NCBI RefSeq assembly: GCF_964204645.1
Contig: NC_134029.1
Span: 4,535,001-4,599,000 of the forward strand
Length of the DNA: 64,000 nucleotides
From: Tubulanus polymorphus
Lineage: Eukaryota; Nemertea; Palaeonemertea; Tubulaniformes; Tubulanidae
Reading direction: 5' to 3'
Position 1 is the stretch's first letter. Each line of letters starts with the position of its first letter. Below, one piece after another: positions 3,001 to 40,850 of the stretch. Made by a program: the position numbers and the translations under genes. Under the pieces are notes generated by a model, which was given only the letters and a program-made list of their open reading frames with translations, was not told the origin of the DNA and did not search any database.

Positions 3001-6000
3001 GGTGAAATATTTCCCCTCTGATTCGCGGAGAACATCCGAAGAGATTCCTACGGGCAATAAATTCATTTTCGGATATACGCATCCGGCGGCGGCCAGCTGT
3101 CTGGTAATGTCAATAATGTGTTAAAGAAGTAATGAAAACGATTTTTAGAAGATTAACTACCGGCGATTGAGTCCAGCCGATGGACAACTGTTAGAGCGCG
3201 CAACATTCTAGAAATCTCAATTATGTTTGCAAAATTTACGGACATTAATTTTAAAAGGTTATTTACTATGTGCTCTTAAATTTTCAAATTAAAGTCCAAC
3301 CAATGGATGCTTGGAATACTGAACAAATTTTGTTCTTAAATCAATATTTCATCTTAAGATTTATGGACCTGGACAGGTACAAATTCAAGTGTGCTTCTGA
3401 TATCGTGGATGTTTTATGGCGCATTTTCAAGCAGTTTAGATTCGGAAAACACTAGGAATCTGGCAGCAGGGTATAACCGACCGGTTTCAATGTTTACCGG
3501 ATACCATGTTTATCAGTTGCTATCAATATGTACACAGCAGGTACGCGGATGAAGATTGGTCGACTACTCGGCTGATTTCACCGTTTGGTGCACGCGACAG
3601 CACTTCAATATTAGTCCCACTAGTCCCCGATAAGCTTATCATTGTCCGTGCGCAGGAATGAAATTAGCCAAGATCCACATATTTACAGTGGGATGACCTG
3701 CTTCATATCCGCCGCCGATAAATAGTTTTAGAGACGCTCATATTTAGTGGCAATCAGTGTATTCATTACTAGAGGATCGTGAATTCAATTCAGAGCTAGT
3801 GATCTTCGCTCCGATGAGCTACTTTCTGGTGAAAATGAAAGATGGTTGGCGATAATGGGATAACATTGCCGGGTTGTTTATGCTATCGGACATTTTGGTC
3901 TCGCCAATCCGGGTCCGTGGAAGCGCATTGCCCGTACAAATAATTACCGGAAGCTGCTGATAATGTCATCCTCCATAAATAATTCTTTAAAGTCGTGTTG
4001 AAAATGATTTTTAATGGGTTTAGATTAAAACTTTAGTCGATGTGGACGATGCTGTTGGACATAGAAGTTCACGTACAACGCAGATTGATTCAAACAATTA
4101 GTAAATGAATTGATAAAACGCATGATGAGAATAACGCAACATCCTACAAAGTTTAGAGCCCAATTTTACGCTCGTGATTAAAGTCGAAGGAGGTCTTAAG
4201 TTTTGTATTAGCGGTAGAATTCGGTATTTGCCTGGTTTGAAGTCTAAGCCGCGATTGTGAAATTGACCCCTCGATGCGCCCACGTGGTCAATTTGTGACG
4301 TTGTTGATTCATTTTTGCATATTATAAGCGTTATTACTGAAATGAAAGGACTGTTGAAGCGTGTGTCGTGTTTAATCACTATTAGGACGAAACTTCAAGT
4401 CCTGCGATACAAACACATGTATATGTATAATGTTATATTCGGCGTGTGATTTCCTGACGACTGGACGTGGTCAATATCGATTTTATCGCTAATGATTCGT
4501 TCCAACATATACGTCAAGCAAAACAAACCGGTATTAATCATGTATATATAAAAACGATGAAGCTGGTATTCTATTTCATAACTCTTAAATCTGAAAGATA
4601 ATCGATTTCGGGTTTTTGACTCCCGTGTTTGTCGAAGGCAGCAGTCTTATGCGCAGTCCGATGAATCGATAATTTCCTCGCTCTCAAATCATCGAATAAG
4701 TCAACGCTTTTAGACAACGACCGAGAATGAGCTCTTGGTAACATAATTGTCCGATTAAATTATATAAACGCACGCAACTCTTAAATAGAATATATTCTGA
4801 GGAACCCGTGAGGTTTCTGTAGTCACTTCAATGTAAGCCTTATAGGTCTCTCAGTTGCGGCGATAAGTAGCCGTTAGAGTCTTATAATCCGTCAGGTTTC
4901 CAGTCGATTTAATCGATCAAACACAGATTCGACGCTATTTGAAGGAGTCATCGTCGTTTCGCCAACTTACCCGACTCGATTCGGTAAAACCCGATTAACA
5001 GTGATACGCTGTGTCGTGTAATCGGGGATTAATGGCTGTGTTAGTTTTATGCGTTGAATTTTCAAATGTTCTCCAGCAACTGAACCACGCATCTCTAAAA
5101 TCCGCTATTCATTCGGAATGTAATCATGATTAAACGACGTTTCTGAACAGAGTCGACTTCGATATGTTTGATGCATTCAGTGGGGCTGCATTGATGTATA
5201 TGACAATGAATTATCGATATAGAATTAAACCTTTAGTTTAAAAAATGAAAAACCTTACCTTGTGTTATACCTTACTTCTCGAAATCAGGTAGTTTTTCTA
5301 GATGATAAGATTATCCCCGTTGGATTTTATCATAGCTTGTAAATTGTTTCAAATCACTTTATTCCGGCATAGCTGCAGTTAGTTGATTATTAAGTCCAGA
5401 AAGACGGGAGATAGATTCGAATTCAACCTCGCCGAGTTCTTCTAAACAACTCGTTGCAGACTTCGCTTCTTATTAGCTCGCGGATGAAAGGCAGATGCGG
5501 TGTGAATCGGAACCCCGCGAGCTGCTGTGTGAATGAGCGCGGTACGGCGAACACTTGAAGTGATTTTCGCGTGCGACTGAATGCTCAGTCGAAGCGGCTG
5601 GGTTCAGGGTAGAGAGAAACCACACGCGTGTGTGTGTCTGTGACCATGGCCTTACCCTAGCCGACTAAGTGGTCATTTATCTAACTAACATATTAATATT
5701 GTTGCAGTTCCGTTTGTCCGCGCAATACAATATATCCCAATATCGGTTGGCAAATGTTTACCGGTAAATACTTAGTACTGATAGTCTTTATTTGACATAT
5801 AATTTGCGCAGGACTACGCAAGCGTCTACTGCGTAAATATGTGTTTATAATCATCAGAAATAAGAGTAAATAATGCTATATCAGTCGGTTTTTAATGAAC
5901 GCTAAAAACGCTTATTATTCACCGACTTGAATTCATTTCTAGACAATGAAAACTATTAGAATTGTAAATAGCGCATTCAAAAATAGAATTTCGTCGAACT

Positions 6001-8885: not shown

Positions 8886-9863
8886 CTATGTCTGCTGGGG
8901 TCTATACAACCGCCATATTAGAACCAGTTCTGTGCGAAAAGGTTTCAAATTGACAACGTAAATGAAAAAGTTAATGGCGCTGTTTGTGATCATCAAAACT
9001 CCGCCGATCAAATTCAATAAATGGACGATTTGGATAGGCAAATTGTGCATTACATCTGTCATATCAGATAACATATTTTGAAGGGTGTTTGGCGCATTCA
9101 ATATGAAATATGCTATGACTATGCAAATCAGATTCTTCATACATCGCTCATCCTGAGAAAAAGTGCTCGCATTTTTGAAACGATTGTCGCGACGAAAGAG
9201 TTTGATTACAATCAACAAACTAGATATTATAAGACCAATCCAAGGAATAATTGTCATCGATAAAGTGAAATACATAGTAAGAATTGTGTTGATCGTTTTC
9301 CCAAATGTATAAGCTCTGCAGTTTTTTAAACCGACTGCAATAGTTTTTACGTAGAATATCATACTCTGTACGCCTTCCGTAACAGCGAAATAAATTACAA
9401 CCGACAAAATAAGATACATACGCCGAGCAGGGGTTGCTAATCTCATGGTGCGCAATGGAGCCCAAATAGCAGTACTACGTTCGATAGAAAAACATAAAAG
9501 TATCCAAGATGACGACTTTACACCGAAATTCATTAACGCCATTACAAACCTGCACGAAACTATATTAATTGCAAAGAAATTGTAAATGCCGTTCCCGACA
9601 CCGGCTACGATGTGTATCCTTTCTAACGATTTCAACGAAAATGTTATCACAAATATGGAATCCGAGAAAGCCAATGGAATCAGGTACTGGTAGGTGCACG
9701 CGTCTATCTTGTGGCGGAGACGATACAATATAACTATAGACAACATACTGCCCGATACACCGATTACCATAGAACAGTAGATGTAGATATTGAAAGTGTA
9801 CCAAACAGCATTCTGCCAAACAGGAGACAAATAGACACGGGTTGCATTTCCAATAATAGCCAT
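8886..9863 (-). CDS. Rhodopsin-class (class A) G-protein-coupled receptor
   Basis: This intronless frame encodes 325 residues with seven hydrophobic segments at roughly 22-47, 58-80, 95-127, 150-172, 192-222, 243-268 and 276-303. That is the usual plan and length of a small class A receptor of the plasma membrane. Family marks seen: an N-terminal N-A-T glycosylation site (residue 6); LAFSD with the sodium-site Asp near residue 68 in helix 2; candidate disulphide cysteines 104 and 182; Pro207 in helix 5; NAP in helix 6; and a charged FR segment after helix 7. Odd points: helix 1 has GVSGS where GxxGN is typical, the DRY motif is ERS (129-130), the CWxP motif is reduced to NAP, and NPxxY reads NSAINFFIY. 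The pattern is like divergent peptide-type receptors (FMRFamide-receptor-like) that are expanded in invertebrates, but the ligand cannot be told. The first ATG with context TAAAATGG is chosen because it precedes the extracellular N terminus. No neighbouring paralogue is present. Confidence 0.9.
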   Translation of the reverse strand: MAIIGNATRVYLSPVWQNAVWYTFNIYIYCSMVIGVSGSMLSIVILYRLRHKIDACTYQYLIPLAFSDSIFVITFSLKSLERIHIVAGVGNGIYNFFAINIVSCRFVMALMNFGVKSSSWILLCFSIERSTAIWAPLRTMRLATPARRMYLILSVVIYFAVTEGVQSMIFYVKTIAVGLKNCRAYTFGKTINTILTMYFTLSMTIIPWIGLIISSLLIVIKLFRRDNRFKNASTFSQDERCMKNLICIVIAYFILNAPNTLQNMLSDMTDVMHNLPIQIVHLLNLIGGVLMITNSAINFFIYVVNLKPFRTELVLIWRLYRPQQT

Positions 9864-12998: not shown

Positions 12999-13071
12999 TG
13001 GAGAACCCGGGCATCGATCCCGGTACCTCTCGCATGCAAAGCGAGCGCTCTACCATGTGAGCTAGTCCCCC
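12999..13071 (-). tRNA. tRNA-Ala (anticodon TGC)
   Basis: The minus strand folds into a complete 73-nt cloverleaf including the discriminator A. The acceptor stem is GGGGGAC with GTTCTCC and contains the G3:U70 wobble pair that marks alanine tRNAs. The D arm is GCTC/GAGC, the anticodon stem CTCGC/GCGAG has loop TTTGCAT giving TGC, and the T arm is CCGGG/CCCGG with loop ATCGATG. There is no intron and no encoded CCA. A run of six T on the minus strand (13 bp downstream, 12983-12988) fits a Pol III terminator. All stems are intact, so this looks like a working gene that reads GCA and probably other GCN codons. Confidence 0.97.
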
Positions 13072-15723: not shown

Positions 15724-15853
15724 CCAGGCGCACAGTCGTGACTGAAGTCAAAAATGGCTCTTAAATCTCAAGACCGGCTTTATTGGATGGGCTTTAGAAC
15801 TATGTTAGCCTAGACTGGTCTTGAATCTAAGCCATGCCTTAACAACTGGCCTC
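15724..15853. repeat. Palindromic MITE-like element, copy 1
   Basis: The element begins CCAGGCGCACAGTCGTGACT and ends with AAGCCATGCCTTAACAACTGG, so its ends are imperfect inverted repeats. The interior has AAGACCGG and GACTGGTCTTGA blocks in inverted order. The same plan recurs at 18840, 33693, 37263, 41189, 51033 and 63400. No transposase is present, as expected of a non-autonomous element. Confidence 0.7.
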
Positions 15854-16183: not shown

Positions 16184-16186
16184 AGT

Positions 16187-16207
16187 GTCTCTGTGGCGCA
16201 ATCGGTC

Positions 16208-16253
<46 letters not shown>

Positions 16254-16260
16254 AGGGACG
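16187..16260 (+). tRNA. tRNA-Asn (anticodon GTT)
   Basis: A complete 74-nt cloverleaf. The acceptor stem GTCTCTG pairs with CAGGGAC (one T-G wobble), the D arm is GCGC/GCGC around the AATCGGTCA loop, the anticodon stem TTCGG/CCGAA has loop CTGTTAA giving GTT, and the T arm GGTGG/CCACC has loop TTCAAGC. Discriminator G and no encoded CCA. A TTTTT run at 16263-16267 fits the Pol III terminator. No intron. All paired regions are intact, so it should decode AAC/AAT codons. Confidence 0.97.
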
Positions 16261-18839
16261 AATTTTTATATCGACGTGCGTCACACCGGGGCGAAGAATC
16301 TCATCAGTGAGATAATTCAGTTTTCCTATGTTACAAAAAAATATTCCAGAAGTGATTCCGCGGGTTTGTTCTACACAGTACGTAATCCCCTGAGCCTATG
16401 CCCGTTCCGATTGCTTGCGTATGCCTGCATTAATTTTGAATATAGATAAGCTGAGTGTGTCGTATCTGTTCATTCATCTTGCCGAAAGAAGTAATTACGT
16501 CTTAAACAAGCCATTCCCATAAGAGTGAAGCTAACTTTTAACCGGATTAAGAATGTTGCGAATCGTGTCTCGGTTGTTTCGCAAAGACGTTCCCGCGATC
16601 ACTCTGACGGGACTGGAAAAAATGTCGTACGGTGTTCTGTCCATAGACGTTCAAATGTATTTGTCTTCTTTCTTTTTGCAATGGCGCATGATATATTCCT
16701 CTAGTTACGCTTCTATCATCCCAGATGTCTTCATTATAACATCCGATAATCTGTATTTTCATTTATAAAGAGGTAGAAAAAACCCGACTTCGGAACTCGG
16801 AAACTCACGAACTCGAGATGACGTCTCAGGGCTTCCATAGTGTGACGTCAACTTGAGCGAATAGCTCTTTGTGAGGGATCGATGATGATCGAAGATTAAT
16901 AGAGCCTGTATCTACCCAAGAAACTTCTGCGTGCGACATTGACCAATTCTAGGGTTCCTTCATATAAAAAGGCAATTTCTAGCTGTCCGATCCATCACAA
17001 TGCTACGTCATCATTTCCTGGTTCTCAGTTTTGCTATAGAGTAGGAATCCAATAGATCGACCATTATGTTAGAAAAACCAGTCATTTACCAGTATTTTTA
17101 AAGAAATAATCGTACCGGTACAGCAGTATGAAGTACGTAGATGGTGCATACGTATAATCACTGAAATACACATGTATGTATCTTAATAATATGTATATGG
17201 TAAAGATGTATATCGATATATAGATATAATAGATAATATGTATATGTTTGAAACGTATACGTATATGTCGTGGACAAGATATGTATATATCTTGAATTCA
17301 TTTGAATATGCTTTAAACTGATACGTATACGTCATCAAAAAAATATGTTTATGTATAAGAATGCCATATAATCGTGTCTCGAATTTCATTCCATATTTCA
17401 CATTCATCATTCCCTGAATTTTTAGATATTTTCGATATTTGGAATAATGTTTTCGTTGTTTTATTGTGGGTTTGAGACTCTATTCAAATGATTCGGATGA
17501 TTGTATTTTTGTATGTTTTGTAACAACGATAAGGGAATAAAGTAATAGAATAATAACACAGCACCGTGTAACAAACTGACGTGTTAATAGATTTTGAAAT
17601 GAATCGTGCACCACGTTCTGCATCTCTATTTAGTTTCATCGTTTTCAATCACATGTTGTCGAGAATCATTGCTGTAAAATCGCCATAAAAACTACGGCTA
17701 TTCATACAGTTACAATTGACGAGTATTTGATCCTGCAAACGAGCCATTATCATCGACAGTCAGTTCTTTGTAAATCACGAGATAGATAAGGGTGATTGAG
17801 GCCAGATAATCTACACGATTACCTCGTTAAGATGTCCTTGCAGCAGAAGATTTACAATCGAGGGATAAACACTATTGATTTTTCATCCGAAGTCACTCGT
17901 TTCGATGCTGCCTAATCGTTGACAACACTTTTACAAATGACTGGAACCGTTTCCGCTTCATGTCACTGAACAATCCTCCCTATAATGTAGATCTCGGGAA
18001 ATTACATTAAAACACGTCAAAAGATATTTTTCGAAAATGATAACTTTCCATACGTTCATAAAGATAATAACATGGTTCATGGCCACTCGAAAAGTTAGAT
18101 ATATTAGAAATTGGCGCGTAACTACGAATAAAGACTGAACTTTAGATAGTTCTCAAACTATTTTTGAACAATGCGTTTGGGATACTTGAAGATCAGATAT
18201 GCTGGGAATTCGTAGATATATCTTCAAAAAAGTTTAGTTGAAAGAACGCAATAAATCTCGAGTGTTATCTGCGGAATAAAATGCCTTTGAAATATTCCAA
18301 AAACATCGACGAAAGCAAATATCTTTAACCACCACCAAATCATTAAAAGTATGTTGGAAGTATTTCAGAAATGTAAGTTCACAGATTACGTTTCGTTGTT
18401 GAAGGAATTACATATTGTCGATGAACAGTACTTCAATAAGGCTGATTTAATATTACTACTGGACCGAATACTCAACATTCCCTGAAAGAACTCCGATGAT
18501 TACAACTATGACTGACAGATAATCAAGACAGGCAGCTTTCCATAATACGTAGAATTATGTACGGGATTTGAATACGGCGATATTTTCGCATCCTCCGCGA
18601 TCGAGAACATTTTCCAAACGATGCATGGACTCGTATATCAAACGTCATCGGTGGGTACTTCCTTCTTATTGCTACATTAATTGCTACAGCTACAAGTTCC
18701 GGAAGTTGTACACCGGAAGCTACCGGCTATATTCAAATATCCCGAGCTGGAAGGAATTTTCTCCAAATGGCAATTGTACTTATCTCTGATGCAAGGTTTT
18801 AGAGATTAACAATTAGAAGAGCTTATAAATCTTTTGGCA
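16261..18839. other. Non-coding interval with an AT-rich quasi-repetitive core
   Basis: From about 17150 to 17360 the sequence is dominated by ATGTATATG, ATACGTATACG and related alternating purine-pyrimidine steps, including two copies of ATACGTATACGT-like sequence. This is a degenerate simple-sequence region. Opposing frames at 16547-16768 (71 codons each way) have no family resemblance. The rest is featureless. Confidence 0.5.
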
Positions 18840-21900: not shown

Positions 21901-24860
21901 TATCACCATTGTCCCTCGTGTTATCAACATCGAATTCATCTCTATTTCGCGAAAGCAGAATTGGCGATGACTGCAGTTAATTCACAAAGTATGAAAATAA
22001 TGATGACAAATGAAGTTATGATTTCGAAAGGATGAACACGAACGAACATTACCATTTCATCTGAGCAATATGTTACTTTCGAGGGACTTAAGTGTCTATT
22101 CATGCATGTATGCTAGCATTATCAGCAAAATCTATTCTGGATGTCAGGCTGATTTTGTTCTAAACACGAATTTCTTCGTTTTCATTATATTTTTGCCTGT
22201 TATCGCTATCAATAACACCTATTTCACGGATGATAAAAAGATTGTCGAAATGGATCTAGACACGGAATTAGCCATATTCTGTTAGAGTAAATTACCATAA
22301 GATCGCGGCAAATTCGAATTAACTCGACATGACATAAATCCCGGTTATCAATCTGGCTTTAGTTGAGTTTCTTATTATATCCTAATTATATCAATGACGT
22401 ACGATAAGACAGTATAGCGCATTGAAAATGCGGCCAGGTATTATGATCATGGAGTAAATGTCATCCCACCCGGATGGCTGTAAGTCAACAGCCGAATCGT
22501 GCTGGTTACAATTTCTGGGATTATTTCTTACGTATCTTTAGTGTGTTGTTTTCTTCGTTATCAGTTAACACGGTTCGGCATTTCTATGTATGGTATTTGG
22601 AACCATCACGACCGACCGAACATAACGTTAACAAATATTAACAAGTATGTATTTTGACACTCGACGTTTCACTAGTGGTTCGTAATTTCCTCCTACTCGA
22701 CTTCTCTCCACCTTCGAGAGCTTGATAAGTAAATGAAAATCGGACGAAGAAAAGAGCGCTGGTCGATGGGTAATTGTACCCGGAAGTGCACAGTACGTGT
22801 GGGTGACTATTTATCAGCATTTAGTATTCCGATGCTGACCACCGCGCCGAGTCGTGTATGCATTAACATGGCTGTTAGTATTCACCTGTGATCTACTATG
22901 ATTGCTCTGCCAACTACCAATATCCGAATAACAAAATAAAAAACGTTGATAGGCGTAGTAACGATTGCATAAATCTGCTCAGCTCGACTAGTCTATCGGA
23001 ACTCTCGGAAAATGGCCATTTCTAAATCGGGCTATAAACATAATACAGACGGAATGAATAAATCTTATTCATTGACTTTTCGTTACAGAACGTGCAACTT
23101 GAAAAAAAAATAATACGCGCAGAACCCAAAAACAACATTGAGGTAACATTCATTTCATGCACTGAAGAGGAAGTATTCACTTGTAGGTAAATACAAAATT
23201 AGGTGCTAATTGTCGGCTAGAATGCCACGCGGATAACGGGTACGTTATCGTTCGCAAACTAACATAAGTATAATGGTTCGAAATGTGGCATCACACTATC
23301 ATTTCAGTCAAAAGGTCTAATAGCTAACTAATGATAAAACTAATAGCTAGTGATTGTCATGATTGTCAGATGGATTCGTTATAGGGGACTTTAATGTCAC
23401 GATATCAGATATGAATTAGGTCCGTAGCACGACGTTCAGTCACGAATCGAATTAAAATGTGATAAAATCCCATACAGATTCAATCAAAATTTAAACAGTT
23501 CATGAATTCACCAGCATTTAGATGAAATGCGCATGATAGATTTATTTTCCGAAACTACGTCATGATTCACCCCATCACTGATCGTTTCAGAAGGTTTTTC
23601 GACATCGTAAATGTATATAGACCTGACTGGAAGGAATCACATTCATATGGACTTCGCGCCTGATCGCCGTGTATTCCGAATGCGACTTATAAAGATACCA
23701 TACTTCCTCGTAAGCTTCCTCGTTAGCTATTTCTAACTGCCATTTTGAAGATGGATAAGCATCACGTTCAGATACTATTCTAATGGGCCTCTGACGGTCA
23801 TTAGGCTCATCCTATAGTTGAGCATCATTAGGTTTTATCATTAAAAAACCTATCGAAGGTTACAGTAAGAGCTACCCCATCCCCTCGTCCTATTCTATTT
23901 TGCTCATCTTCTTGTTCGAAAATCTAATTTGCGAATATGATCCAGGTTCGATACGTCGTTGGCTTGCCATTTAAATCTATTTTCAAAATCTCATTTGTTC
24001 TCAACGCAGAACGATTCCAAGTAATCTATGAACTGGTTGATCAAAGAAAAAACCCCGGAAGATCAATGCAGTTCCGTCGCTAATATGGTATAAGATCACT
24101 TAATAGATAATCGAAGTTTGAATGGATCGCAAATTGTAAAACTTAGAAAATATCGGAAAAATTCTCACTGATCGATAGCATTATTAGGCAAATATTATGC
24201 ACTACGAAGTGAAGTAACGTCTTCAGATGCGCAACGAATGATAACTCAATTCAGATTTCCTCTCCATTCCCCAAACAAAAAAGCATTTGTTGTATCTCAT
24301 TCTGTAATCAGATTGATCCATTTGGATTTGGATTTTTTTGCGATCAAAGCGAACTTGATTACACAACATTCTGGAAGTGCTGCTCCGTAGTTTGCGGGGC
24401 AAACCTCTACTCCGGTAAGCGAGGCAAATTCGGCAAATAATCAGGATTCTTATCTTGTATAGAAAGGATGCTAATGACCCGATAGATTAACAGTTAACAA
24501 GACCTGATTGTTAAATTCACATCGTTTCCACGAGCTCACTAGAGACAAGGTTACCGTGCACGATAATTAATGAACGTCAGGAAAATATTCCAAATGCGGA
24601 AAAAGTCATTAACGACTTTACCTATTTCAGAACCGTATCTTGTAACACTCCGGGGACACGAAACTAATCTAAATTCCTTTGAATCAATGCTGGAACATAC
24701 CAACTCAATTATCTAGGAAATAGGAATACCATTCATTGTTCGGTTGACTGCACACGGTCACTGGACGACTTTGAAACTTTGCTTGACTAACTTAAGACCA
24801 TCGATGCAACGATATTACCCTATAAGAACTAGAATTTTCATTAATTAATTATATGTGGCT
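18983..24860. other. Long non-coding interval without a supported gene
   Basis: The longest open frame here is a 151-codon minus-strand frame at 20525-20980, moderately basic and unlike any family I recognise; a frame of this length is expected about once by chance in a window this size. Other frames are shorter than 92 codons. No RNA gene and no clear structured repeat were found. I treat the interval as intergenic, allowing that isolated exons could be missed. Confidence 0.45.
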
Positions 24861-24861
24861 T

Positions 24862-25257
24862 GTCAATGGAACTGACTGGACGAGTGACCGGTCAATGGAA
24901 TTTACTGGACGAGTGCCCGGTCAATGGAACTGACTGGACGAGTGACCGGTCAATGGAATTTACTGGACGAGTGGTCGGTCAACGGAGCTGAATAGACGAG
25001 TTGCCGGTCAATGGAACTGACTGGACGAGTGGCCGGTCAACGGAACTGAACAGACGAGTGGCCGGTAAACGGAACTGAATAGACGAGTGGCCGGTCAACG
25101 GAACTGAATAGACGAGTGGCCGGTCAACGGAACTGAATAGACGAGAGGCCGGTCAACGGAACTGAATAGACGAGAGGCCGGGCAATGGAACAGAATAGAC
25201 GAGTGGCCGGTCAACGGAACCGAATAGACGAGAGGCCGGTCAATGGAACAGAATAGC
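24862..25257. repeat. 29-bp minisatellite, about 13.7 copies
   Basis: Thirteen full 29-bp units and one partial unit follow each other with no gaps, each beginning GTCAA(T/C)GGAA and ending GACGAGNGNCCG. Units 1-4 alternate between an ACTGACTGG form and a TTTACTGG form, a 58-bp higher-order dimer. From unit 7 on, the form GAATAGACGAG(T/A)GGCCG takes over. Units 10, 11 and 13 have GAGAGG instead of GAGTGG. The length of 29 is not a multiple of 3 and stops occur, so it is not coding. Confidence 0.97.
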
Positions 25258-32134: not shown

Positions 32135-35100
32135 CTATACTTGAGTGACTCGAAAGTCGATTTTTTCGACTGTATGCGTATTGTCATTAGACGGCTGGAC
32201 GGGTGTAATCGCGGCTGGTTCTGCTTCGGGCATCTTGAACGACCAGTACTTCTGTTCTGTATACCAGCTGCTGATTTGCTCTATCGTATCCGGTAGAGGG
32301 CGCTTATTCGTTTCCGGTAAGAGCAGGCAGACGAACGCAGAGACGAAGGCAACGACTGCGAATATGACACCCGGTAACCACGGGATCATTTTAGCCTGAA
32401 AATTGACAGAAACAGAGACCAACGAGCAATTAGTTTATTTATGAAAGTAACCCGCAATGAGGCATGCTTATCGACGTAGATTTTGCAGTCAACCTCTTGT
32501 TTTTCTAATATGGCGACACCTACCAAAGATACTGTAAATGGAGATATCATAGTACCAATACGAGCTGTCAATGTACACAAACCAAACCCTGTATTCCTAA
32601 ACACAAGACGCGAGAAATAAATATTGTACACTGTGTTATCATCTGTAATGAGAAACGGTACCAGCAACTACCCCACAATACGGTGTGCAAATCATTAGGA
32701 TAACCCAATCAGACTTTTGTCCAATTTAAATGAAATTTTAGCTTCCCACATAAAACATCGATCGACCATTAGGGCTCATATGTAGCGCGATTTTCGTTTA
32801 TCCTTCGTACAATTTTAAATACATGTATTATGGACATACATCCATTAGAACTGTAAAGAAATCTGGCTTCATCGTCCCCATGCACACTAGCGAACCTGGT
32901 GGATCCATTTAGAATCCTCGATTGCCACAGTCGAACATAAAGTCCTCACCATAATTCGGTTAATCGGATCAGATGATTCTTCTTACCTGGCATTCGTCGG
33001 AAAGACCTCCGTTGTGTACAGAATAACCGAGTTGAATGTACAGGTTATCGCCCATTTTCCGAACATCGTTAGAAACATTCTCAACGGTTTTAGACTCACA
33101 CCGGACGCTGAAACAAGATCGAATGATTCATTCGCGGTCGACAGCTTGATCAGTTCAATTGAACCCCGATTATGATTTTAGAACTGGACCGAAAATTAAC
33201 CTGCTCATTTCGTTTACCTGTTTTAAGTGGAATAAAGATGACGATCAATACGGTTAGACCAGCCAGTATGAAGAAAATGAAATTAGGCAACCGCCGACCC
33301 CATCTGTCAAAAGAACATAAAAAAAATCTTAGAATATAATCAAAGTCACCTCATAGACTTTCTCAGTCTGACATTACGACGAAAATTTGATAAGATTCGA
33401 AGAGCGATTTGTTTTGAAGTGGATAGTCATACTTTGGCCGGGGGTAAAAACAAACCTTTGCAGAGCGAGTAAACTGAAAATCATGGCCGGTATCTCGATT
33501 AATGAGTTGAAAAAGAAGTTCAGATATCGGTCTGATGATAACATTGTTGACGTAAACGATATGCCCCAGTAAACGATACTGTTTGCAAACCTACAATATT
33601 TAGATTTAGAAGGAAAAGCTGATTGAATCTCCGGACGTGGTACAAAGTGCTTGAGTTCGCGCTAGATAATTCCCGCGAATCCAAACCCTTCAGGGCCCAG
33701 TTGTATAGCCGTAACTTGATTCCAAAGATTGGAACGAAGACCTTCTTTAATACAAGCAATGGCTGTGCAGCTGAACGAAGGGAATATTGGCTGTTAAAAT
33801 GCGGGGTACTAAGATAGATTCAAAATTGTCTCTAAAGATGTAACATCAACCAGCTTCCAAATACCACGAAACTAACTTTGAGCAATTACTCTCCATGCTG
33901 CTAATATTTACCATAAAACGCACATGCAACACAGTATCTTTCTGAGAGTCACGTTTCTTACGATGTCCATCGTGGACGCCTCTTTGACTGGCGAATTGTT
34001 TGACAGTCGTTCCGTCGACTGAGAAGATCGTAACGGCTTCTCCGGCATGTGCACTTTATTCATTTGTGCCGCTTTGACGAGAATCTTCTCGGCCTCGTCA
34101 ATTCTTCCATTAGATGCGAGCCATGGTACAGTCTCTGGGATGAAACTAGAATCAGACCCGTGAGATACAATGATGCCTTTATATACAGTATATGGCCAGT
34201 GAAACACTCTCAGGTCCATGGGAGCAGAAAATACATAGATGAATTGTTCATTATTCAAGAAATGATAGCAGAAAATGTCTGAATTTGTAGAATTGTTCAT
34301 TATTCAAGAAATGATAGCAGAAAATGTCTGATTTTGTAGAATTTGAGAAATTTGTAAAAACTTACAAGAAGTAAGAAAATGAAACTAAAGGCACCAACGC
34401 AATTGTGAGTTGTAAATGACGCCAATCTCGGATGAAATACGCGCACATGCATAGAAACAGCATTCCGATTGCCCACCAGGTTTGGATAAAAATACCACCG
34501 AAGGTCCGCTGCTTCGCTTGCAACGTCTCGCAAGCCGCGACAAATGACGATATATAAACACCCTGAAATAACGTCCGGATTATCTTAGATTTCATTTTAC
34601 CTTGGAATATCAATTTTATATCATCAAAAGATGTTGTATTGTTTAACGCTTATGGTTTGAGACTAGCGAATCGATACCTACCGTTTGGAGACAGCCAGAA
34701 ATCACTCTTAACAATACAAACAGCCAGTAATGGTAAGCCACCACGTGAGCTGCCTCGAATACGGTGTACAAGAATAGTAACAGGTAGTACATGCGTTTCC
34801 TGCCGAATTTATCCGCCATTACCGGAAGGAAGAACGAGCCCAAGGTGGAGCCAACGACCTTCAACGTGATGGTCAGCTCGCCGAGGAAATTCCGATCACA
34901 AACCAGATCCCACTTCAAATATAAACATACAACGATTTAACACGAAATAAGATAAGACTGTCGGTGAGGTGTAATATCGAAGATTTAACGTCTGTTGTTA
35001 CACTGACGTTTCGTGTAGATTCATGCTCTAACGTATCTTCACATATTTTTTGAAAATCATTTTCGAGATCTTCTAGAAATTCACCCTCTTAGTATTTGAA

Positions 35101-35954
35101 AAATAATGAATTCACGGAACGTTGCTATTAGAACAAACGTAAATCAAAGTTAGTGAATTTTTGTCGGTAAATATTGATCTGTTTGTGAAATAGGGCCGAT
35201 TCATTTCCATAGTTATTTCGAATCATCAGAATATGCAAGTAGAGCGTTGGCCTTTTTTGTCATTACCATTATAATAGGCCTTGTATTTGCTAATCGAAAA
35301 AAGGAAATGTAAATACATCATTATTGATGCCACTGACCTCGGTAATGATAGACGATCCAAAGTCTACGTTCTGGAATTCTATACCGTTGCTGCACGGTAT
35401 TTTACCCGTACCGTTTCTATACACGTGACATTGATCCGTTTCGTTGTTCGCGTTTACGATGAATGTTTCGTTTTCGGAGAGACGACAGTGATACTGTTCC
35501 GGCATCGCAGCTACAAATACAACAGATAAATCATAAAATACACTTATTCAGCCATCATTCTGTAAGTAGGCCAAATAAACTGATATGGGAATGAAAATAG
35601 AATTGATCTAATTGTTTCACGTCTTAAATATGCAATAAATCTAATTCTTCAATGGTCATTGATATTATAATCAGTATCGCAAAAAGTGATTTATATATTA
35701 TGAAATCAATAGACATGTCTTTTGGGAATTTTTCACAATCGGAATAGAGTAGATAATCGTTAATTCGTGTCAAGAACGCAGACATTGGTACGTCCATATT
35801 GAGAAAATTTAGACACATCTTACTAACCTATGAATATAGGACCCATCAACGCAATCGCAGCTGCGAAACAACACGCTATCGCCCAGCCGGTGTAAACCAA
35901 CGACTGCCATAATCCTATAGTACCCAACTTTGCCAGGGCTTCGTCGACTTCCAT
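32135..35954 (-). CDS. SLC22-family major facilitator transporter, gene A (10 exons, 545 aa)
   Basis: Exons, 5' to 3': 35828-35954, 35338-35510, 34682-34912, 34366-34562, 33912-34145, 33456-33590, 33218-33303, 32987-33107, 32524-32596, 32135-32395. All introns are GT-AG and the joined frame is 546 codons with one terminal TAG, the usual SLC22 length. Marks of the family: MEVDEALAKLG and the first helix in exon 1; an extracellular loop (residues 43-100) with Cys residues and three N-x-T sites; the MFS signature GSTLGSFFLPVMADKFGRKR at 121-140 between helices 2 and 3; PETVPWLASNGRIDEAEKIL in the central cytoplasmic loop; WGRRLPNF at 367 between helices 8 and 9; EVFPTNAR in helix 11; and PETNKRPLPDTIEQI near 486-500. 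SLC22 proteins move organic cations, anions or zwitterions such as carnitine across the plasma membrane; the substrate here cannot be told. A second copy lies 1 kb upstream. Intron 4 has a fresh 49-bp duplication and introns 5 and 8 hold repeats. Confidence 0.93.
32886..32929 (-). repeat. Dispersed repeat, copy 3, in intron 8 of SLC22 gene A
   Basis: Read on the minus strand it gives GTGGCAATCGAGGATTC, then GGATCCACCAGGTTCGCTAG. It matches the copy at 53908-53975 closely, although it lacks about 20 bp of spacer, and matches the one at 8461-8505 more weakly. Confidence 0.6.
33693..33774. repeat. Palindromic MITE-like element, shortened copy, in intron 5 of gene A
   Basis: It opens GGGCCCAGTTGTATAGCCGTAA and closes AATGGCTGTGCAGCTGAA, resembling the ends of the 37263-37402 copy, but the interior is only about 45 bp. 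It lies wholly within an intron of SLC22 gene A. Confidence 0.5.
34241..34338. repeat. 49-bp tandem duplication in intron 4 of gene A
   Basis: Two adjacent 49-bp units starting GAATTGTTCATTATTCAAG differ by a single base (GAATTTG against GATTTTG near the end). The near-identity suggests a recent duplication. It lies between exons 4 and 5 and does not alter the coding sequence. Confidence 0.95.
35338..35510 (-). other. SLC22 gene A exon 2: extracellular-loop exon, converted tract
   Basis: This 173-nt exon encodes residues 43-100, the large loop between helices 1 and 2. It starts A-A-M-P-E-Q-Y-H-C-R and carries the N-x-T sites SENETF, NNET and RNGT. It differs from exon 2 of gene B at only two bases by my count (one silent, one Gln to Lys), and the match runs about 8-10 bp into both introns before the similarity stops. 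Confidence 0.9.
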
Positions 35955-36969
35955 CTTGAATGTGTCACAACAGACTAATCGCTGTAGTTGGCATTGATGA
36001 AACTAAGGCAGGAACCATTTACCATCACCGAAAAACCTCTCTGTTCATTCGGTATGCTAGTGCCGATATTTTAAACGAAGAATCTATTTCTTTCAGCGGA
36101 TATGCGTTAACGCGCGCGCCTTTCTAATTCCTTATCCAGAAATAACTTGATCGAACTAGTAAAGAGTCGATTCAGAGAAGGAATACTATATATACGCCAA
36201 CTGAAGTAGGTCACTTGTATTTTTGACAGATAGAAGTGCCGCGTGTCAAGTTTCGAAATTTCTAGTTCAGGTTATTGATATGTCACTAAACGGACCATAC
36301 CGACCTGCTATCGATCTGTCCCGCGGTGTAGCTGACATTACGATTCATTCATATAAGAAATACTCGAAACTAGTAGAAAATACACACATATAATATATAT
36401 CGATGTGTTCTTTAAAATTTTTATTATATATATGCTTAAATTTTCACAATCTATTTACAAGCTCACATCCTCGCACGTTCTTTTCAACATATATGATACA
36501 GTAAACTTTGTGTAAGTAAGATCTTCTGGGACTGAGAAAAATCAAAATCCTCCGACTTGGAAAGAGTCCGACTTTGAAAAGCAGCCTTTTTCCGAAAACG
36601 ACGACTTAAAAATTGATTTCTGTGAGCGGAAAAATTGAATCAATATCTTCTAGAAATGATTTGAAAAACGCTTAAATATTTCGGGTTCATTTTTCTATTC
36701 TAATACACTAAAATACCGTCTGTTGAAATGTGTCGTCGATTTCAAGCCAGGAAGAAATCAAACTGCAGAAGAAAATAACCCTCCGACATACGGTGAATGA
36801 CTTTAAGTGATCTTTTATTTTGGAACAAAGCAAAGTACTACGAAATAGAATCCGACTTTGGAATTATAAATTTCTTTGTAAAAGAGAGGAAAAAGTCGGG
36901 ACCATCAATATTCACCAGAAACTAGCGATTATCCGACTTTACGCAAGGTTTATTGCGCGGTCCTTCACT
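35955..36969. other. Intergenic spacer between the two SLC22 genes
   Basis: About 1 kb separates the stop of gene B from the start of gene A, which should hold the gene A promoter. The phrase TCCGACTTTG(G/A)A appears in slightly different forms near 36547, 36566, 36848 and 36933, a local low-copy repeat. A perfect AATAAA for gene B is at its left part. I see no clear TATA box with a defined start site. Confidence 0.5.
36949..36954 (-). promoter_or_regulatory. Polyadenylation signal of SLC22 gene B
   Basis: A canonical AATAAA on the minus strand lies about 15 bp after the gene B stop codon. Its position implies a very short 3' untranslated region; another downstream signal could also be used. 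Confidence 0.55.
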
Positions 36970-39900
36970 TTAAGTACTTAATGCAGTTTGGTTCGGCAGT
37001 TTTGGTAATTCAAACGACCAATATTTCTGCTGTTTGTCCCATGCTTTGATTTGTTCGATAGTTTCCGGTAGAGGGCGGTTCAGAGTTTCCGGTAACAACA
37101 AAACGACGAACGCCGAAACGATGGACATCGCCGCGAAAATAACTATCGGTAACCATCGATGTATTCCAGCCTAGAAAAACAACAATTAAATATAGCTGCT
37201 GCCTAGCAGCGTCCTTTAGGCTTACTTGAACACTGTAGGGAATTTTAGAAAATAGAGAAACAGGGCCCAGTTGCACAGTCGTGACTTAAGTCCAAAAGTG
37301 GTCTTAAATTTTAAGACTGGTCTTATGTTGTTAGATCGAGTATAGAACTTATTTGGTCTTAGACCAGTCTTAAATTTAAGCCGTGAATATGCAACTGGCC
37401 CCAGTAGTTTTTGTCGGAGACTCAAACTTGGTACATCTACGTCGACAGATTCAACAGACAGTCTTATTTGAATTCAAGTGAATCGGTTACAAATTTTAAT
37501 CTTGGTTTCTAATTTCTCAGAGTGGAAGCAAACTTCCATTTCAGTGCGATTGAAACAGACAATATACGACTTAACTTACATGTATGGAGAAATTTCAACG
37601 AATTTACATTTTGTACGTGTACTTACCAAAAAAATTGAAAATGGCGACAACATCGCACCAACTCTAGCCGCGAATAAGCATATACCAAATGCAGTATTCC
37701 TTAAAAATATCAAAATCAGTCATCTACCATACGATTAGCTTTGATTATGCATGAATCGAACTTGTCTAAAAATTTTGATAGTTGTTACCTGGCATTCGTT
37801 GGGAAAACCTCCGTCGTGAAAAGGATGACGCTGTTGAATGCGGACGTTATCGCCCATTTACCAAACATTGTTAAAAGTGTTCTCAACCATTTGAGGCTTG
37901 CTCCAGAATCTGCAAATAGTCAACGATAAGTGGATATCTTATTGAAAATATTTCCTCGTTCGAGATAGTGATGAAATTTACGAAAAATGTGATTCTCTTC
38001 TGTGTAAATGTGCGTCTTGTAAAATACAAGCATGTTTACCTGTACTTTCGGGTATAAATTCGACGATGAACAATACTATACCGGCAGCAATGAAAAATAC
38101 GAAATGTGACCGCCTTCTACCAAAACTGAAAGTATGTAATAAATATAACCGATTAGCTGGTATCTACTTGCTAGCTCAGTACAGTAACTCTAAGTAAGAT
38201 TTAAATTAAAAAGGTTTAATTCATTGAATGCTGAAAGCGGCCTTGGGAAACCGATCCTGTAATTTCCCATAGATAAGTAAGATTCTTGAATAAGAAAAAT
38301 ACACTTACTTTTTAAGACCCGCAAGACTAATCGCAATGGCCGGTATTTCGATCATCGAGTTGAAGAAGAAGTTTAAATATCTTCCAGATGACACCATCGT
38401 AGATGTGAACGAAATACCCCAGTAGATTAACGTAACGGAAAACCTTAAATAAGGAAAGAGGGACGTTGATTACCGTGAACAACTCCACGGCGACGTATAA
38501 CAAAACCAGTAAAGAGACGAACGAAAATGCGAAGAAAAAGATATTCTTGTTTAAACTCGAGGACACATTCAACCATTAATTTAGAGCCTGTATGTTTATA
38601 TATACCTACCAAATGAAACACAGGCACAATAGATATTTTCGTAAGATGCGACATTTCAGAACCTCTTTGATGTTTGAATTTTTTTTATTCTTAGTTTCCC
38701 TCGATCTATCCTCGTTACCCCGCAATGGGTTCACTGGCATTTGTTTTTTGTTCATCTTGGCCGCCTTTACGATTATCTTCTCGGCCTCTTCGACTTTCCC
38801 ATTGCCTGCTAACCACGGCACTGATTCCGGGATGCATCTATGAAATCATAATCACATATATCTAAGCAAATCGGATACCATCAGATTCGAACCCCTGCAA
38901 GGAGATGCTTCATTTTCATTTTCTCATCTTATTCTACGTCGATATATTCCATTCTTACAGGAAATACGAAAATGTGACAAGAGGCACAAATCCTACGATC
39001 ATTTGTATGTAGCGCCAGTTGCGGATGAGATAAGCGCACATGCACAGGAACAGCATACCGATAGCCCACCATACTTGAACGAATATACCTCCGTACGTGC
39101 GGTACTTCGCCGGAAAGACTTCACAGGCAGCGACAAATGATGACGCGTACACACCCTAAAAATTAAAATGATCACCCTACAACCGCCTAAAATAGACTCG
39201 TAAGTGTAAAATGGCAGTGAACTGCAAAAGATATCTTACTGTTTGCATGAAACCAGAGATGATTCTTAACGCTATCAACGCTGAATAATTCGGAGCAAAT
39301 CCATTGCCGGCTTCGGTGAGTGAGTATAAAATCAAGAATATGTAATGAGTCCGTTTTCGTCCGTATTTATCAGACAGAATTGGCAGACAAAAGGAACCCA
39401 ATGTCGATCCGAGGACATTTAGAGTTATAGCAAGTTCGCCAAGAAGGTTACGGCTACAAACCAGTTCCCACTGGAAAAACAACGCGTGGAACAAACAGTT
39501 AGTACCATTAAATGCCATTGGTGCCATTCATTTGTTTATTCATTAGGTTGAGGTATCGAAAATATTTGACCTGGATCTATTACCAGTTGTGATTTATGGA
39601 TTCAACTTTCGCGTTAGATTCAGTTCATTTACGCAAGTCACAATTACCCAATGCTCGCAATAAATAAATCGGTATACCTTACAATTTAACCATTACTAAA
39701 TTTTTCTAACTAATCGTGGACCTCCCTCCCGTATCTGAAGCACTAACCTCGGTAATGATAGACGATCCAAAGTCTACGTTCTGGAATTCTATACCGTTGC
39801 TACACGGTATTTTACCCGTACCGTTTCTATACACGTGACATTTATCCGTTTCGTTGTTCGCGTTTACGATGAATGTTTCGTTTTCGGAGAGACGACAGTG

Positions 39901-40850
39901 ATACTGTTCCGGCATCGCAGCTACAAACACGATTATATTAACTAATAAATAAATTAATTTCAGTACAAAATAGAATAAAAATGAGTTGAAACCACGTTTT
40001 TAGCCGTCAGTAAATAATGTTCGAGTACTAGTACAATTTCAATTCAATTCAATTCTTTACAATAAAACATTTTAGCAACAAACATGAAATAATTAGCAAG
40101 AAGAAAACTAGGCTGAAGGTGTATATTATCATTGATGCCTCTTGAGAGAAAATGACTATATCGACAGTATAGACGATAGAATTGAATTGAGTTCACTGGG
40201 CAGCAGTCTAGCCCTAATATTGATGACGTAATACGCATCCAGGCAAACTGTATCCTAAACGCTTTAACGCAGAGTCAAAATGTTTGTTCTCAGAAACACT
40301 GTTTCTCCAAACCACGAAGTTCTGGAAAGCACACATCACATAGGGAAACGCTCGGAAACATTTCCCTGGCTTATGTTTCTGCGTTTCTTTGTGTCGAGTG
40401 CGTTAGTCATAACGTCCAAGGCCCACGACGCAGGGAAACAGGGAAATGTTGTTCATGAAAACCATGTTTCTCGTAAACGCACACGACACAGGGAAACGCT
40501 CAGAAACGTGTTGCTGTTTACGTGTTTCCCTGCACAGCGTGATTTGGTCGTATGGCTCCTCCGTGTTTGCCTCCAAGATTCTGTAAAAACTGTTCGTATC
40601 AAAATAATCTTTCTCTACGTTTAGATTTTTCTATTCGACAAAACAACAAACTTTCAAACTTTCAAATGGAATAAAGGATCTCTTCACCGAAGCCGCCAAA
40701 CTACGGAGTTTCTTTGAACTTACCCATAAATATAGCTGACATGGCTGACATTGAAGCCGTAAAACAGCAACTTATTGACCATCCTGTATAAACAAGTGTC
40801 TGCCATAATCCGAGGAAACCTAACTTATCCAAAGCTTCGTCCACTTGCAT
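36970..40850 (-). CDS. SLC22-family major facilitator transporter, gene B (10 exons, 523 aa)
   Basis: Exons, 5' to 3': 40724-40850, 39748-39920, 39240-39470, 38959-39155, 38610-38837, 38309-38443, 38040-38125, 37789-37909, 37627-37699, 36970-37170. Every intron is GT-AG, every phase equals that of gene A, and the joined frame is 524 codons ending in TAA. It starts MQVDEALDKLG; an upstream in-frame ATG at 40994 would add an unlikely 48-residue extension, and gene A supports the inner start. Seen in order: the glycosylated loop exon, GSTLGSFCLPILSDKYGRKR (MFS signature), ESVPWLAGNGKVEEAEKI, FGRRRSHF between helices 8 and 9, EVFPTNAR, and PETLNRPLPETIEQI. The C terminus is 20 residues shorter than in gene A. 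Outside exon 2 the two proteins are roughly half to 60 percent identical by eye, an old tandem duplication. Probable role: plasma-membrane transport of an organic ion; substrate unknown. Intron 9 carries a MITE-like copy and intron 1 a LINE-like tail. Confidence 0.93.
37263..37402. repeat. Palindromic MITE-like element, best copy, in intron 9 of gene B
   Basis: About 140 bp bounded by GGGCCCAGTTGCACAGTCGTG and its inverted partner (GTGAATATGCAACTGGCCCC). Inside, TTAAGTCCAAAAGTGGTCTT and TAAGACTGGTCTTA on the left are mirrored by TTGGTCTTAGACCAGTCTTA on the right, so the element can form a long hairpin. It carries no coding frame. Confidence 0.85.
39748..39920 (-). other. SLC22 gene B exon 2: extracellular-loop exon, converted tract
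   Basis: The partner of 35338-35510. Same length, same phase, same three N-x-T sites, with Lys in place of Gln before the CHVYRNGT segment. Adjacent exons of the two genes are far more diverged than this one. Confidence 0.9.
40039..40130 (-). mobile_element. Probable retroposon 3' tail in intron 1 of gene B
   Basis: On the minus strand the sequence runs TTTTATTGTAAAGAATTGAATTG with three AATTG units, the same arrangement (AATAAA-like, then a pentanucleotide tail) as the LINE fragment at 14.5 kb. No coding portion is visible, so only the extreme 3' end would remain. Confidence 0.35.
40290..40560. repeat. Quasi-palindromic GGGAAACGCTC repeat block in intron 1 of gene B
   Basis: CACA(T/C)AGGGAAACGCTC(G/A)GAAAC occurs in similar form near 40337 and 40487, each followed by the complementary phrases TTTCCCTG and GTGTTTCCC. 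The block is a nest of direct and inverted copies. The 114-codon plus-strand frame across it is a by-product of the repeats and is not called as a gene. Confidence 0.55.

Follow-up and report, generated by a model that had tools for sequence, protein, structure and literature searches.

Gene conversion that is restricted mainly to exons has been described for the CEACAM genes of mammals, where it affects the exon of the extracellular N-domain (PMC7042247). Among the CEACAM1 paralogues, the extracellular-domain exon of neighbouring genes is kept alike, the introns little, and other parts diverge; a pathogen-driven reason has been proposed for these immune receptors (PMC7042247). Old gene pairs in which some exons evolve in concert and others diverge are represented by BMP8A/B, DDX19A/B and TUBG1/2, with tracts that comprise several exons plus introns and mostly show a raised GC3 (PMC2720389). 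The red and green opsin genes of primates form a tandem pair with ongoing conversion and sharply local differences in divergence; here the introns are homogenised and the functional exon has diverged (PMC3924837). For SLC22 transporters, it was reported that the first extracellular region is conserved within a subclade and not between subclades, which was ascribed to function with gene conversion unmentioned (PMC4633038). A non-exhaustive literature search among open-licence papers retrieved no report of gene conversion for SLC22.

The locus described here, a tandem pair of SLC22-like genes named A and B, shares with CEACAM1 the preserved extracellular-domain exon in neighbouring, otherwise diverging genes, with the BMP8A/B-type pairs the age and the mixture of concerted and divergent exons, and with the opsins the tandem arrangement and the local contrast. 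It differs from CEACAM1 in that the latter are immune receptors, and from the BMP8A/B-type pairs in that a single exon is involved, the introns have diverged and GC3 is not raised; with respect to the opsins, the roles of introns and exon are reversed. Exon 2 of A and B exemplifies a known process in a sharply delimited and recurrent form. The within-subclade conservation of the SLC22 loop has its counterpart in the arrays reported below.

The window, a 64-kb stretch (G000:C5:4535001-4599000) of a genome of 267.8 Mb, contains both genes on the minus strand. Their features are as follows (window coordinates):

32135..35954, minus strand: gene A, SLC22-like transporter, gene model with AG/GT splice sites, 10 coding exons, 545 amino acids

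35954-35828, 35510-35338, 34912-34682, 34562-34366, 34145-33912, 33590-33456, 33303-33218, 33107-32987, 32596-32524, 32395-32135, minus strand: exons of gene A

36970..40850, minus strand: gene B, SLC22-like transporter, gene model, 10 coding exons, 523 amino acids

40850-40724, 39920-39748, 39470-39240, 39155-38959, 38837-38610, 38443-38309, 38125-38040, 37909-37789, 37699-37627, 37170-36970, minus strand: exons of gene B

35338..35510, minus strand: exon 2 of gene A, homogenised tract, 2 of 173 bases different from B, pS 0.029

39748..39920, minus strand: exon 2 of gene B, homogenised counterpart of the tract in A, from which it differs at 2 of 173 bases

35331..35520, minus strand: outer limits of raised identity around exon 2 of A, 98% over 190 nt with 39741-39930

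39741..39930, minus strand: outer limits of raised identity around exon 2 of B, by comparison of the intron flanks

34682..34912, minus strand: exon 3 of gene A, diverged neighbour and internal contrast, 57% amino acid identity to B, synonymous sites saturated

39240..39470, minus strand: exon 3 of gene B, diverged neighbour

The reading frames of both genes are intact and complete, and every internal boundary is AG/GT. When gene A was compared with solved structures, all 26 chains matching at E ≤ 1e-20 were SLC22 members, and its best PDB relatives include OCTN2, OAT1 and OCT3. In a search with PF00083, exons were scored singly. TIGR00898 was the best NCBIfam model for both genes (367 bits for A and 351 bits for B); since neither score reached the cut-off of 550.75, the genes are termed SLC22-like. 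Both show the hallmark of the family, i.e., an MFS transporter with a large cysteine-rich loop between TM1 and TM2 that carries sequons and is directly followed by a WDLVC-type motif. Two of the introns contain repeats. A 49-bp unit is tandemly duplicated (98%) in an intron of gene A (34241-34343), and an intron of gene B harbors a short interspersed, MITE-like element with imperfect terminal inverted repeats of 45 nt (37260-37405), of which at least 39 more near-full-length copies with 89-97% identity are present in the genome and a weaker relative in the window at 15724-15851.

The original prediction, made from the sequence of the window, held that exon 2 of the two genes differs at only two of 173 bases amid heavy divergence elsewhere, with exon 3 about 55-60% identical at the protein level. 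The alignment gave exactly two differences, an amino acid identity of 57% for exon 3, and saturation in the other exons. One of the two changes is synonymous (Cys, TGC/TGT) and one a replacement (Gln CAA/Lys AAA), corresponding to a pS of 0.029 (dS 0.03) and a pN of 0.007; none of 21 fourfold sites differ. Pooled, the other nine exons have a saturated pS of 0.77 and a dN of 0.29. The CEACAM1 paralogues are younger than A and B, and their other exons are not known to be saturated. Synonymous divergence calculated exon by exon was far from uniform, with exon 2 standing well below the pS values of 0.50-0.88 of the other nine. Among codons for the same residue, 1 of 56 differed in exon 2 and 141 of 262 in the other exons (Fisher p = 4e-15). 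The least-diverged stretch of 57 codons contained 2 base differences, compared to a minimum of 23 over 20,000 codon permutations. A DNA search of the whole genome with exon 2 revealed no copies besides A and B.

The match had also been expected to end about 10 bp into each flanking intron. This was roughly the case at the acceptor side, where identity runs on for 7 bases and 10 of the last 12 intron bases match (5-8 beside other exons), but not at the donor side, where 6 of 12 bases match, which is not above the other exons. The tract is essentially the exon plus its splice signals. As the introns of A and B have almost nothing in common beyond these signals, the ends of a DNA tract are invisible in this pair.

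Three candidate drivers of the low divergence were considered and rejected. GC-biased conversion was dismissed because GC3 is not raised in exon 2 (0.53 in A and 0.52 in B, inside the range of the other exons; 0.37 in exon 2 of the C9 array described below). RNA structure was discarded because folding of exon 2 is ordinary (z -0.75), and an effect of the longest exon because exons 3-5 are longer.

Exon 2 comprises 57 full codons and encodes the complete extracellular loop 1, AAMPEQYHCRLSENETFIVNANNETDQCHVYRNGTGKIPCSNGIEFQNVDFGSSIITE; the sequence after it, at exon 3, reads WDLVC or WELVC. It contains three cysteines and three N-glycosylation sequons, the latter read from the sequence. The assignment of the tract to the glycosylated loop between helices 1 and 2 was borne out by the gene models and the matches to SLC22 structures, with glycosylation predicted from the sequons. 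Judged from the order of the motifs, the cysteines of exons 2 and 3 would include pairs conserved in SLC22 proteins. In OCT1, the loop forms a disulfide-held, glycosylated domain without contact to the C-terminal lobe, for which a role in folding and trafficking was proposed (PMC10567722).

A protein search of the genome revealed many SLC22 arrays. Several were sampled, partly as short pieces of 18 copies, with exon limits on C9, C5a, C5b, C1, C4 and C3 taken from translated matches rather than full gene models; pairwise values within an array are not independent of each other. One of them lies on another contig than A and B:

G000:C9:15670501-15726500: SLC22-like array of ten copies, exons 2 and 10 homogenised across copies

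The loop protein is identical or nearly so in all ten copies. When the two main copy groups are compared, the pS of exon 2 is 0.062 and its pN 0.006; for exons 4-8 the pS spans 0.5-0.77, with 0.765 in exon 4, 0.67 in exon 5 and 0.73 in exon 8. Distances in exons 3, 5 and 6 track those in exon 4 (r 0.95, 0.87 and 0.95), whereas those in exon 2 are uncorrelated with it (r 0.10, p 0.2), i.e., the phylogenetic signal has been lost. Exon 10 is homogenised as strongly as exon 2, and the first half of exon 3 partly. In the upstream (acceptor-side) intron, about 30 bases are common to copies 1 and 8, across the group boundary; BLAST extends this stretch to roughly 100 bases with a gap. The starts of the donor-side intron are common to copies 1, 6 and 7, to copies 2 and 9, and to copies 3, 4, 5 and 10. 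These differing combinations of copies sharing intron edges indicate DNA conversion tracts with varying ends. The array also contains a 5.2 kb unit that was duplicated very recently (99.5%), and a copy (copy 4) that is probably broken, as its exons 4-5 were not detectable.

In the C5a array with five copies, exon 2 is again the least diverged exon (pS 0.064), compared to 0.135-0.39 in the others (0.23-0.39 in exons 3-9). Four sampled pairs gave one-sided p values for exon 2 of 0.023, 0.003, 0.0009 and 0.00009, and intron edges next to exon 2 are shared in smaller measure than in C9. Between arrays the loop proteins are only about 31-46% identical, so that each array has its own loop sequence. 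Together with the mosaic intron edges, this argues for concerted evolution by gene conversion at the DNA level, and the unlikeness of the loops between arrays is evidence against a common constraint on the nucleotides.

Homogenisation was also found in other exons. In the C1 array, exon 10 has the lowest value (0.068) and exon 2 the second lowest (0.108). Of the five exons compared in C5b, a pair, the lowest value belongs to exon 4 (0.18) and the highest to exon 2 (0.58). In two C4 groups near 22.66 Mb, where the loop sits inside a larger first exon, the island is exon 5 (0.22 and 0.08), and the loop exon has values of 0.53 and 0.38. Exon 5, which encodes the start of the large intracellular loop, is 92-95% identical among the SLC22-like copies at G000:C4:22.656-22.690 Mb; for most of the remaining exons the figure is about 70-80%. 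The loop exon is mildly lower at C4:8.24 Mb (0.31 vs. 0.58 and 0.47), and an exon-wise comparison of the SLC22 array at C3:10.5 Mb gave no island. A three-copy array of cytochrome P450 genes served as control. It has a sharply bounded island in the last exon (pS 0.11-0.15; 0.17-0.26 in a conserved exon upstream), and the contrast is milder than in A/B. This tandem array is located at G000:C3:5093501-5103500 (local positions 2379-2776, 5588-5954 and 9040-9437); the last exon of copy 3 is 93-96% identical to those of the other two, and most of the rest is 71-84% identical. The P450 island and the SLC22 islands in exon 10, 4 or 5 show that exon-sized islands are confined neither to SLC22 genes nor to the loop. 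In four of five arrays with the exon structure of A/B, the loop exon is among the two most strongly homogenised exons. This ranking, with a roughly estimated p of about 0.04 without the A/B pair, is post hoc and suggestive, and the specificity of homogenisation for the loop is only partial.

Homogenisation of exon 2 by gene conversion, in one form or another, is highly probable. The ectopic conversion put forward originally is strongly supported, and further weight comes from the other arrays, where it recurs and intron edges are mosaic. A recent event between exons that had long been diverged is less probable than repeated conversion since the duplication, since the ten- and five-copy arrays need repeated events. 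The further suggestion that selection keeps the loop surface alike was not supported as stated: elsewhere it is exon 10, 4 or 5 of an array that is homogenised, the loop exon of C5b is not homogenised and the P450 array behaves similarly. Selection may act on the loop.

We consider it likely that exon 2 of A and B is a persistent island of gene conversion maintained by repeated copying between tandem paralogues. DNA repair would copy exon 2 between A and B at a rate that holds the two copies at about 99% identity. The introns and the remaining nine exons would have become too dissimilar for pairing and would have escaped conversion. After divergence of the introns, homology would be confined to exons; one that is often converted would stay alike and hence convertible, and one that has drifted would leave the process for good. 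Exon 2 of A and B would be the last exon still inside this process, and the tracts would end at its edges because only the exon is still homologous. Other tandem arrays of the genome are subject to the same process, which often affects the loop exon where SLC22 genes have this exon structure. According to theory, concerted evolution ends in this way once conversion becomes restricted (PMC3924837). Conversion of A and B would then have been repeated and not a single late event. As the loop would form a domain of its own, closed by disulfides and remote from the transport core, its exchange may be tolerated; alternatively, a shared loop may be favoured by selection.

A stronger form of the latter view, which we put forward only tentatively, is that the SLC22 loop serves as a cassette open to exchange. 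If selection favoured a single common loop in each array, conversions of exon 2 would be retained and those that mix transport cores removed, placing loop and core under opposite regimes in every array. Such sharing could be advantageous, e.g., for folding or trafficking in a common way, for the assembly of mixed oligomers or for the binding of the same extracellular partner.

Much less probable than the persistent island is a single recent ectopic conversion of exon 2 copies that had long been diverged, with the result retained or promoted by selection for sameness of the loop. It would fit the very low divergence of exon 2 and a tract covering the entire loop. A role for selection would also be in line with the importance of the loop for SLC22 function and its conservation within but not between subclades (PMC4633038), and with its high rank in four of the five arrays of the same structure. 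However, a single late event would have had to recombine exons perhaps only 60-70% alike, which is unlikely; conversion depends on long stretches of near-identity, and identity in the remaining exons of A and B is only 56-74%. In addition, one event does not account for the ten- and five-copy arrays, and against selection on the loop stand C5b, in which the loop exon is the most diverged of those compared, and the C4 groups near 22.66 Mb, in which it forms no island.

Conversion templated by spliced RNA or cDNA would explain why the identity of A and B ends at the exon borders apart from the splice signals. We regard it as very improbable, as the tracts in C9 and C5a contain intron bases common to diverged copies, the 10 of 12 matches at the acceptor side of A/B are slightly above those at other exons, and a cDNA would tend to bring neighbouring exons too. 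Even less credit is given to extreme purifying selection on the nucleotides without conversion, due to RNA structure, an overlapping gene, or a splice or regulatory code. The nearly unchanged synonymous sites of exon 2 and one open antisense frame would agree with such a constraint, but the RNA folding is ordinary, the loop exons differ in sequence among arrays yet are equally homogeneous inside each, and C9 shows intron mosaics. An artefact of assembly or polishing, in which one exon 2 was copied over the other, is the least plausible of all. Nothing in the sequence speaks for it; two bases distinguish the copies, the introns around them are unique and unrelated, and comparable islands occur in several arrays, where each copy shows 1-3% differences.

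The single-exon islands in otherwise saturated genes show how paralogues escape homogenisation in stages, one segment after another, which can be measured here in several independent arrays of one genome. Similarity of the loop among neighbouring SLC22 genes may reflect conversion and not function, and the inclusion of exon 2 can make SLC22 gene trees misleading.

Outside the two genes, the window contains a tandem repeat at 24855-25256 (about 14 copies of a 29-bp unit, 88% matches) and two predicted tRNA genes, tRNA-Ala (tgc) at 12999-13071 on the minus strand and tRNA-Asn (gtt) at 16186-16261 on the plus strand.
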